NCBI RefSeq assembly: GCF_900187305.1
Contig: NZ_LT906434.1
Coordinates: forward strand, 2,294,001 to 2,358,000
Direction: 5' to 3'
DNA from: Neisseria zoodegmatis
GTDB taxonomy: Bacteria > Pseudomonadota > Gammaproteobacteria > Burkholderiales > Neisseriaceae
DNA: 64,000 bases
A program made the position numbers and the translations under genes. Position 1 is the first letter of the stretch. Every line of letters begins with the position of its first letter. Shown piece by piece: positions 20,893 to 24,935 of this stretch. The notes under the pieces were generated by a model, which was given only the letters and a program-made list of their open reading frames with translations, was not told where the DNA came from and ran no database searches.

Positions 20893-20930
20893 AAAAGTTT
20901 TATCAACTTTAAAGGTACCATCAAAAATTA

Positions 20931-20961
20931 AAAAGCCACCCTTCTGGAAAGGGTGGCTTTT
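20931..20961. terminator. Bidirectional terminator between grxB and ccoP
   Basis: AAAAGCCACCC and GGGTGGCTTTT with a short loop, A-rich before and T-rich after. It works in either direction between the converging genes. Confidence 0.85.
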
Positions 20962-20976
20962 ATCCAAATGCAGAAA

Positions 20977-22335
20977 TTAATTTTCTACTTTTACTTCTAC
21001 ACGGCGGCCTGCGGCATCATTCCCTTGGGCAGCTGTCGTATTTTCAGGTTTACGCAACTCAATATTTTTTGCATCAATACCTTGTTTAGTCAAAAAAGCT
21101 TCTACGGCTTGAGCGCGTTTTTTAGAAAGTTCAGCATTCGCTGCAGCATTACCAGTGCTATCGGTATATCCGCTGATAACCAGCTTCTTACCTTCTTTAC
21201 CTGCCTTGATTAAATCAGGCAAGATCTTATCTGCATTGTCGGCAACATCGCTCTTGCCGGTAGCAAAATAAAATATAGCAACGGCTTGGCCTGCTTGAGT
21301 ATCATAAACTACATCGGCTTTATCTTCAGCAGGAACCACTTGAGCTGCGGCTGGAGTTGAAGCTTCTGATGCCTTGGTATCGGCTTTCTTCTGCGGAGCA
21401 GCTTTACCGTCTTTGTTGGATAATCCCCAAACATAAGCAGTCATAATATGAAGCTTATCTTTATCCAAGAAATTATCCCACGCAGGCATTTGGTTGTGGC
21501 GGCCATTTGTAATGGTTTCGATAATGGCTTTTTGAGTTCCACCCCACAACCATACATCATCGGTCAGATTAGGACCTAGCCCCTGTACACCCTGCCCCTT
21601 ATCACCGTGGCAAGTGAAACAGTTAGCCGGGCCGCCGTGGAACAAAGCTTTACCACGCTCAGCACGTGTTTCATCGTATTTATCTGCGGTCTTAGCTGAC
21701 AAAGACATAACGTAGTTTGCAACGTCTTTAACCCGCTCCTCACCCAAGGTCGGCCCCCAAGCAGCCATGATACCTACGCGGCCTTTTTTAATGGTTTCCT
21801 GAATCTGAGCAGGTTCTCCGCCCCACAACCAATCATGGTCTGTTAGATTCGGGAAACCTTTAGAACCTTTGGCGTCAGAACCGTGGCACTGAATACAGTA
21901 AGTATCAAAAAGGTTTTTACCGATACTGCGCGCTTGAGGATCTTTTGCAACTTCTTCGACGGGCATTTTGGCAAATTTAGCATACAGCTTGCCATATTGT
22001 TCATCGGCTTTTTTAACTTCTTTTTCATACTGGTTTGTACTCGTCCAATTCAAGTAACCTTTATAGTCACCCAAACCGGGGTACAGGAATAAATATACCG
22101 CACCAAAAACCCATGTGCCCACATAAAGCCAAAACCACCAGCGCGGCAAAGGGTTATTATACTCCTCGATGCCGTCCCATGAGTGCCCCATGGTTTTCAC
22201 ATCTTCTCCTTTCGGAGGAGCTTTCACTTTATTTTGAGATAAAAGCAGCCAAGCCAAACCGATAAAGCTGAGTAAAACGATAACGGCAATATAAATATTC
22301 CAGAAATTACTGGTAAATTGTGAAGTTGTGTTCAT
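20977..22335 (-). CDS. ccoP: cbb3 oxidase dihaem subunit CcoP fused to an OmpA-like domain
   Basis: 452 residues from the ATG at 22335 (GGAG 7 nt upstream). An N-terminal membrane helix (12-33), the FixP/CcoP N-terminal region with a second helix (66-86), and two cytochrome c domains with CxxCH at 147-151 and 239-243. After a Lys/Ala/Pro linker (~310-345) comes an OmpA/MotB-like peptidoglycan-binding domain (~352-452): IFYFATGKSDV, VISGYTDSTGNAAANAELSKKRA and a terminal GRRVEVKVEN. The Asp and Arg that bind diaminopimelate in OmpA domains are present (Asp392, Arg407). Gonococcal CcoP has a third haem domain at this place; here it is absent. The protein delivers electrons to CcoO/CcoN, and the extra domain could anchor the oxidase to the cell wall. 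Confidence 0.95.
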   Translation of the reverse strand: MNTTSQFTSNFWNIYIAVIVLLSFIGLAWLLLSQNKVKAPPKGEDVKTMGHSWDGIEEYNNPLPRWWFWLYVGTWVFGAVYLFLYPGLGDYKGYLNWTSTNQYEKEVKKADEQYGKLYAKFAKMPVEEVAKDPQARSIGKNLFDTYCIQCHGSDAKGSKGFPNLTDHDWLWGGEPAQIQETIKKGRVGIMAAWGPTLGEERVKDVANYVMSLSAKTADKYDETRAERGKALFHGGPANCFTCHGDKGQGVQGLGPNLTDDVWLWGGTQKAIIETITNGRHNQMPAWDNFLDKDKLHIMTAYVWGLSNKDGKAAPQKKADTKASEASTPAAAQVVPAEDKADVVYDTQAGQAVAIFYFATGKSDVADNADKILPDLIKAGKEGKKLVISGYTDSTGNAAANAELSKKRAQAVEAFLTKQGIDAKNIELRKPENTTAAQGNDAAGRRVEVKVEN

Positions 22336-22365: not shown

Positions 22366-22533
22366 TTAATGCCCGCTTTTATCATTATCGGGGGTATCGT
22401 CATCTTGCATGATGCTGTTGGCAGCATCGTCGTAATTACGTTTATTGCGTTTGCTCAGCACTATGTAAAGAACCAAAACAAAACTAATAAATACCCAAAC
22501 GGTAAACAGCGAGCGAACCCAGTTGATGTCCAT
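22366..22533 (-). CDS. ccoQ: CcoQ/FixQ, small subunit of cbb3 oxidase
   Basis: A 55-residue gene, short enough to be missed easily. It begins MDINWVRSLFTVWVFISF, has one membrane helix (~9-25), then SKRNKR and an acidic tail ending DKSGH. This is the typical CcoQ: one helix with a charged C-terminus that stabilises the oxidase complex. It starts 5 bp after the ccoO stop and ends 30 bp before the ccoP start. The ATG is preceded by AAGG. Confidence 0.93.
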   Translation of the reverse strand: MDINWVRSLFTVWVFISFVLVLYIVLSKRNKRNYDDAANSIMQDDDTPDNDKSGH

Positions 22534-22537
22534 GATG

Positions 22538-23149
<612 letters not shown>

Positions 23150-23175: not shown

Positions 23176-24612
23176 TTAGTGGTGTTGTGCTTGTGAAACG
23201 GCAGGAATTTCAGCATCAACCGGTTTGCCGCCGATAACGGTACGGTAAACGTTGTATGCCATAATCAGCATGCCGCTGAGATACAGTACGCCACCGGCAA
23301 AGCGGATCATGTAGAAAGGCATACTGCGTTTTACAGACTCAACAAAAGAATAGGTCAATGTGCCGTCATCATTCAACGCACCCCACATCAAGCCTTGCAT
23401 CACGCCTGAAATCCACATAGAGGAGATATACAAAACAACACCGATGGTCGCAATCCAGAAGTGCGCTTCGATCAATTTGATGCTGTGCATTTCTTTGCGG
23501 CCGAACAAACGGGGGATCAAATAATAAATCGCACCGATGGTAACAAAACCTACCCAACCCAAGGCACCTGAGTGTACGTGACCAACAGTCCAGTCGGTAT
23601 AGTGGCTCAAGGCGTTAACGGTTTTGATAGACATCATCGGACCTTCAAAGGTAGACATACCGTAGAAGGACAGAGAAACAACCAAAAACTTCAAGATAGG
23701 ATCGGTGCGCAGTTTATGCCATGCACCTGAAAGCGTCATAATACCGTTGATCATACCGCCCCAAGAAGGTGCAAAAAGAATCAACGACAGAACCATACCC
23801 AAAGACTGTGTCCAGTCAGGCAATGCAGTGTAGTGCAGATGGTGAGGGCCTGCCCACATATAGGTAAAAATCAAGGCCCAGAAGTGAACTACTGACAAAC
23901 GGTAAGAATAAACCGGACGACCTGCTTGTTTAGGCACAAAGTAATACATCATACCCAAGAAGGCAGCAGTCAAGAAAAAGCCCACCGCATTGTGTCCGTA
24001 CCACCATTGAACCATGGCATCAATCGCACCGGAATAAACCGGATAAGATTTCATCATGCCTGAAGGAATGCTGATGTTGTTCACGATGTGCAGCAGTGCC
24101 ACGGCCAAAATAAACGCACCGTAGAACCAGTTGGCAACGTAAATATGCTTGATTTTACGTGTGGCGATGGTACCGAAGAACACAACGGCATAGGCAACCC
24201 ATACCAATGCAATCAGGATATCAATCGGCCATTCCAACTCTGCATACTCTTTACCTTGGGTATAACCCAAAGGCAAGGTGATTGCTGCGAGCACAATAAC
24301 CAGCTGCCAGCCCCAAAACGTAAAGGCAGGCAGAAATTTGCCGCCGAACAAACGCACGTTACATGTACGTTGAACAACGTAATAAGACGTAGCGAACAAG
24401 CCGCAGCCGCCGAAAGCGAAAATCACGGCATTGGTATGCAGAGGACGGATACGGCCGAAGTGGAACCACGAGCCGACATCAGAGAGGTTAAGCACAGGAG
24501 CAAACAATTGGGCGGCTGCGATAACGCCGACCAACATACCCACAATGCCCCAAACTACAGTCATGATGGCAAATTGGCGCACCACCTTGTAGTTATAAGT
24601 TTGCGTTTCCAT
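23176..24612 (-). CDS. ccoN: cbb3 cytochrome c oxidase catalytic subunit CcoN
   Basis: 478 residues from the ATG at 24612, chosen because GGAGA sits 5 nt upstream; an ATG four codons earlier overlaps that site. About twelve membrane helices. Haem-copper ligands are visible: [12 protein letters not shown] and [13 protein letters not shown] (CuB histidines) and [14 protein letters not shown] (haem b and b3 histidines). It reduces O2 to water with high affinity, the main terminal oxidase of neisserial respiration. First gene of ccoNOQP. Confidence 0.98.
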
Positions 24613-24935
24613 AAGGGTCTCCATTAAACATGGCAGTTAACACTTATCGGTTTGCTCCGGCTTGCTTAAACACACCAAAGATACACCCGATTTTTCTTAA
24701 TTTAACACCGCTCGGTATTTATTGAGCATACTTCACGGCAATTTAACTTGCACATTTTAAATCAAAACCTGTACGACACCAAGTTTAATCGGTAGAAAAG
24801 CCGATTTCTCAGTATAAATGCAGGTTGCTTTCCATCATATTTTGTTAGATTATAGATTCCCTAAATTGTCTTTCTTGATTCAGGTCAAATACTTTCCAAT
24901 CAAAAATACAAAACTTAACAATCAAAGGCAGGCGC
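24613..24935. other. Divergent control region ccoN / M61 protease
   Basis: 323 bp, AT-rich, with no coding potential that I accept. It contains an FNR-type box with a leftward TATAAT (described separately). Confidence 0.6.
24849..24888 (-). promoter_or_regulatory. Putative FNR-dependent promoter towards ccoNOQP
   Basis: TTGAT-TCAG-GTCAA (24875-24888) matches the FNR consensus TTGATNNNNATCAA at 9 of 10 positions. On the minus strand a perfect TATAAT lies at 24854-24849, 20 bp beyond the box, close to class II FNR geometry. It would give a ~230-nt leader for ccoN. Rightward, no good -10 was seen towards the gene at 24936, although the box is only ~48 bp from that ATG. Confidence 0.5.

Follow-up and report, generated by a model that had tools for sequence, protein, structure and literature searches.

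We describe here the ccoP gene, which encodes subunit III of the cbb3-type cytochrome oxidase, in a 64,000-nt stretch of the Neisseria zoodegmatis genome (contig NZ_LT906434.1, positions 2,294,001 to 2,358,000; hereafter the window). Its product is a true CcoP of a cbb3 oxidase, with an OmpA-like domain at its C-terminus. This OmpA-CcoP form is real and conserved, and it is undescribed as far as the searched open literature goes: no description of an OmpA domain on CcoP was found in open-access papers at the level of titles and the starts of abstracts, and one candidate precedent (PMC8552683) was set aside because ompA is a promoter in the available portion of that paper. We propose that the domain probably acts as a peptidoglycan tether on the oxidase, carried on a flexible Ala/Pro/Ser-rich leash. 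If this is true, the respiratory chain would be connected to the cell wall directly, at the molecular level, by a terminal oxidase that has its own peptidoglycan-binding domain.

The ccoP gene occupies positions 20977..22335 of the window, as the earlier note placed it, and lies on the minus strand, which that note did not give; the frame runs from an ATG at 22335 to a stop at 20977 and yields a product of 452 amino acids (aa), while frame 1 of the plus strand over the same positions is interrupted by stops. The product scores 369.8 bits against TIGR00782 (cut-off 179.95), and it contains an FixP_N domain (residues 46-92, positions 22060..22200, minus strand as for all features of the gene; PF14715, 79.5 bits) and two cytochrome c domains with the CxxCH haem sites CIQCH (residues 147-151, 21883..21897) and CFTCH (residues 239-243, 21607..21621); ccoP also stands in the contiguous same-strand gene order N-O-Q-P. 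Over the membrane part, FixP_N and the two c-haem domains (N. zoodegmatis residues 9-313) the protein aligns with the solved di-haem CcoPs of Pseudomonas (P. stutzeri-type, 3mk7; P. aeruginosa, 8snh), whereas these are 304-312 aa long and N. zoodegmatis CcoP is longer by about 145 residues, made up of the linker and the OmpA part. The Ala/Pro/Ser-rich linker (about residues 308-342, 21310..21414), with a predicted local distance difference score (pLDDT) below 50 at residues 317-336, leads into the OmpA-like domain (residues 343-452, 20980..21309), in which TDSTG, LSKKRA and a terminal GRRVEVKVEN are read; the two CxxCH sites, the linker and these motifs are thus all present in the translation as the earlier note listed them. 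Only two CxxCH sites are found, so the protein lacks the third one, in a c5-like C-terminal domain, that characterizes tri-haem CcoP.

The C-terminal region belongs to the OmpA-like domains of peptidoglycan-binding type, an assignment first made in the earlier note. A PF00691 search returned a significant match at residues 356-439 (numbered from the ATG; 362-445 in the 458-aa frame) with an E-value of 2.5e-14 and 53.9 bits (cut-off 27.2), so the assignment does not fail for want of an OmpA-family hit, and the predicted fold matches solved OmpA C-terminal and Pal domains in Foldseek and VIA-align comparisons. The domain resembles those of the OmpA/Pal/MotB type (3td4, 1oap, 6jfw and MotB entries) in predicted fold, ligand Asp and Arg, and motif spacing, but none of the proteins among the matches listed is a respiratory oxidase subunit. 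According to the available part of PMC5974059, diaminopimelate is bound by Asp271 and Arg286 of AbOmpA, and PA0833, whose in vitro binding to peptidoglycan is stated in a section heading, has kept both residues. Their putative counterparts in CcoP are Asp392 (21160..21162), matched to Asp271 by motif, and Arg407 (21115..21117), matched to Arg286 by motif and the equal 15-residue spacing, rather than by residue-level superposition. In an alignment of 62 of the 107 OmpA-bearing CcoPs (the 13 proteins without PF00691 among the 120 homologues listed were excluded by design), D392, N400 and R407 are invariant (62/62, query included), as they are in 38/38 OmpA-type CcoPs of the genome set, and the diaminopimelate-contact Asp and Arg named in the earlier note are therefore both in place. 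The OmpA part is under purifying selection: the ratio of nonsynonymous to synonymous divergence (dN/dS) is 0.03-0.11 in the OmpA part (defined in 10 of 13 pairs) and 0.01-0.16 in the core (12 of 13), values that are rough because dS exceeds 1 in several pairs.

We surveyed 83 Neisseriaceae genomes, of which 66 have ccoP; the C-terminus is OmpA in 38, a third haem domain in 18, neither in 9 and unclassified in one, G028, whose ccoP frame is broken in the core (locus L163) and which falls within the gonococcal clade. The OmpA-CcoP carriers include N. dentiae, N. weixii, N. wadsworthii, N. iguanae, N. canis, N. animalis, N. arctica, N. leonii, Bergeriella denitrificans, Stenoxybacter acetivorans and Alysiella crassa. 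Outside Neisseriaceae none of the matches listed extends past query residue 350, in 399 genomes sampled order-wide (at least 12 of them belonging to Neisseriaceae) and 369 sampled class-wide. The 17 genomes without ccoP are 14 of group g10, 2 of g6, and G007; the g10 genomes (G067-G080) represent one Neisseriaceae genus, and ccoP was found in 0/14 of them.

An OmpA domain of the peptidoglycan-binding type that keeps its ligand Asp and Arg, as here, is most naturally read as a tether of the MotB or Pal kind. As in other CcoPs, the N-terminal membrane part is integrated into the core of the oxidase and the two c-haems accept electrons. The OmpA domain would most likely grip the diaminopimelate of the peptide stem via Asp392 and Arg407, by which the oxidase would be tethered non-covalently to the wall and restricted in position beneath it, like MotB and Pal; such binding might limit diffusion of the oxidase or orient its haem domains, and it might affect respiration as well as, following the earlier note, oxidase location, supercomplex formation or electron flow. 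Wall-binding-type and haem domains alternate at one site, which suggests, as a working hypothesis, that it is important where the tail of CcoP sits. Strains for testing oxidase anchoring are readily available among the lineages in which this C-terminal domain was naturally exchanged or lost. An extra C-terminal domain on CcoP is also found, to judge from the chain name, in the engineered bc1-cbb3 supercomplex in which CcoP is joined to cytochrome cy (6xkx), but the added part there is a cytochrome, whereas the extra domain of N. zoodegmatis CcoP has no haem site.

Several observations weigh against the tether and the history proposed below. Nine ccoP genomes carry neither domain and 7 changes are needed on the tree, and 18 further genomes hold haem in place of OmpA. 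G010, one of the nine, has only a decayed OmpA relic downstream of ccoP (57% identity, E 8e-11), and no such relic was seen in the 700 bases searched at each of the other eight; the nine genomes and the mere relic in G010 indicate that the OmpA domain is dispensable. Both OmpA paralogue families in these genomes conserve the ligand Asp and Arg as well, which makes the invariance of the two residues a trait of the whole family and nothing peculiar to CcoP. In 11 of the 13 pairs dN is higher in the OmpA part than in the core, and the dS values above 1 leave dN/dS rough. The predicted template modelling score (pTM) of the CcoP model, 0.51, leaves the relative placement of the domains unfixed, and bootstrapping of the core tree had not converged.

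A different function for the same binding would be envelope architecture, the oxidase acting as an anchor in the inner membrane that keeps the wall close to it while electron flow is unaffected. We consider this unlikely, although the domain can be exchanged and several lineages that retain the oxidase lack it, and many OmpA-CcoP genomes encode further proteins with related OmpA domains; two clades have an electron-transfer domain in this very place, which suggests that the position is of importance to respiration. Somewhat less probable again is that the OmpA fold was kept for a protein partner, e.g., an outer-membrane lipoprotein or a c-type cytochrome, instead of peptidoglycan. OmpA-like domains do bind proteins, as in the Pal-TolB and YfiB-YfiR complexes that figure in the list of structural matches, but the ligand Asp and Arg are invariant and would not be required for a protein-only role. 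We regard the peptidoglycan tether as the most likely reading.

The CcoP C-terminus is a modular end, bearing OmpA of two flavours, a c5-type haem domain, or nothing. In the tree of OmpA domains a 100/100 branch separates the two flavours: one comprises 31 small membrane-anchored OmpA proteins and 8 CcoPs (six rumen-type rows, Stenoxybacter and G054), and the other 19 DUF937-OmpA proteins and 30 CcoPs, that of N. zoodegmatis among them. A single origin of CcoP-OmpA was rejected as one clade on this tree (approximately unbiased test, p-AU 0.008), but two fusions are inseparable from one fusion with conversion or donation because the alignment has 110 columns and no firm root. The N. zoodegmatis genome has one paralogue of each kind outside the window. 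The DUF937 protein (57.9 bits; L117:2619-3959, plus strand) ends in an OmpA domain that shares 63% identity with the one of CcoP, and is possibly the donor or recipient of the CcoP domain. The small protein (L118:1803-2465, minus strand; 220 aa) consists of an N-terminal hydrophobic segment, an Ala/Val-rich linker and an OmpA domain with 49% identity to that of CcoP; no match at all to it was obtained in four genomes of the gonococcal clade (G013, G017, G031 and G048).

The tri-haem CcoP of N. gonorrhoeae and its relatives (PMC2924362) shares with N. zoodegmatis CcoP the same core and C-terminal attachment region, and the Ala/Ser/Pro-rich linkers are of similar length (medians of 59 and 58 residues, with 34 of the 38 OmpA-type rows measured), but a c5-derived haem domain forms the end where N. 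zoodegmatis has OmpA. According to the available text of Aspholm et al. (2010; PMC2924362), tri-haem CcoP was present in all Neisseria species with data at that time, and a single fusion between c5 and a di-haem ccoP was proposed; OmpA is mentioned 0 times in the main text as available. The earlier note, starting from the third cytochrome domain of gonococcal CcoP, supposed that the haem domain had been replaced by OmpA. The tri-haem form as the Neisseria norm is at odds with the many OmpA-type Neisseria species in the survey, and the order of events was most likely the reverse. In a rooted tree built from only the core of CcoP, with 66 rows from the family and 14 from outgroups, haem-type CcoP appears at two places within an OmpA grade: a clade of three rows that includes N. 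elongata, and a clade of fifteen rows with gonococcal and human oral species, the other classified members of whose enclosing clade are OmpA-type. The rumen, Stenoxybacter and G054 lineages, which branch below the haem clades, carry OmpA. Because the haem forms nest in an OmpA-bearing grade, haem most simply came after OmpA and replaced it, either once with later conversion or, as is probable, twice; the published history of CcoP in Neisseria thus changes, since the tri-haem form most simply displaced a wall-binding type of domain.

The number of haem gains was examined with two trees. Forcing the haem rows together on the core tree cost 32.8 log-likelihood units (p-AU 0.053, borderline), and a single clade of third haem domains among c5 domains was rejected on the haem-domain tree, from which the G028 fragment was excluded (p-AU 2e-7). 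The third haem domain of N. elongata is nearest to its own c5 (91%). In G012 the haem domain shows 100% identity between c5 and CcoP, so the rejection on the haem-domain tree could also stem from gene conversion between the two genes. The c5-type haem domain was gained at least once in CcoP, probably twice. On this evidence tri-haem CcoP is not universal in Neisseria and its single origin is improbable, which amends Aspholm et al. (2010) on both points. The opposite course, in which CcoP was tri-haem to begin with and exchanged its haem domain for OmpA, would agree with the 2010 report (PMC2924362, as available) of tri-haem CcoP in every Neisseria species with data, but it is disfavoured by parsimony on the core tree, where both haem clades nest in OmpA lineages and the lineages below them carry OmpA; as the N. 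elongata-type and gonococcus-type third haems also do not form one c5 clade, a result that conversion could again cause, we hold this course to be very improbable. Nothing was found in favour of a frameshift or assembly join as the source of the fusion, which the earlier note had raised against itself and which we regard as practically discounted, because the fusion recurs in 38/66 ccoP-bearing genomes and in 107 of the 120 homologues among the matches listed, with core and OmpA part in a single uninterrupted frame in 37 of the 38 OmpA-type genomes (in the exception, G001, scored as OmpA, the two parts sit at the ends of two contigs and were placed in separate trees).

The earlier note further suggested that electron flow to AniA might be affected, the third haem being the donor in gonococcus. 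This link needs rewriting, for the N. zoodegmatis AniA/NirK (L002/L295, outside the window), a 512-aa frame, has a c-haem site of its own at the C-terminus, in contrast to the 404-aa frame found in N. gonorrhoeae G023, and a c5-like dihaem cytochrome is present in the genome (L005/L206, named c5 from its likeness to a published description and not by a family call). Among 46 genomes with AniA above the family cut-off, a haem-bearing AniA occurs in 17/24 with OmpA-CcoP (six lack it, and the G051 frame is interrupted), in 2/3 with neither-type CcoP, in 0/1 with unclassified CcoP and in 0/18 with tri-haem CcoP, or 0/17 readable since the AniA end of G040 is unreadable. Tri-haem CcoP and haem-bearing AniA thus occur together in 0 genomes, a contrast that rests on 2 independent pairs and has no sign-test power. 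In the AniA tree, where G038 has a very long branch and may be mis-extracted, all 19 haem-bearing AniAs lie on one side of a single branch, and because they form one group the exclusion may reflect one event followed by descent or transfer. We offer only as a speculation, and a rather doubtful one, that the CcoP end is a switchable module setting the wiring of the oxidase to the periplasm: with OmpA the oxidase would be wall-anchored and an AniA with its own c-haem would need no CcoP haem, with c5 haem CcoP would provide an outlet to a haem-less AniA, and the two placements would be mutually exclusive. Two c5-like cytochromes carry a third haem domain (L213 in G036, 415-aa frame; L215 in G010, 402-aa frame), so that c5 itself also gains domains.

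Upstream of ccoP on the minus strand are ccoQ (22366..22533, 55 aa; read by translation and named from position and size, with no family call), ccoO (22538..23149, 203 aa; TIGR00781, 328.3 bits) and ccoN (23176..24624, 482 aa; PF00115, 397.3 bits, the name ccoN being taken from the operon position). An inverted repeat followed by a T run, terminator-like and assigned to neither strand, lies directly past the ccoP stop (20930..20961; read from the sequence, with no score from the terminator scan), and the operon thus seems to end with the 3' part of ccoP that codes for OmpA. An FNR-box-like sequence with one mismatch to the consensus is located at 24875-24888, 251 bases upstream of ccoN, but the window has more near-matches to this pattern than expected (57 found vs. 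34 in shuffles).
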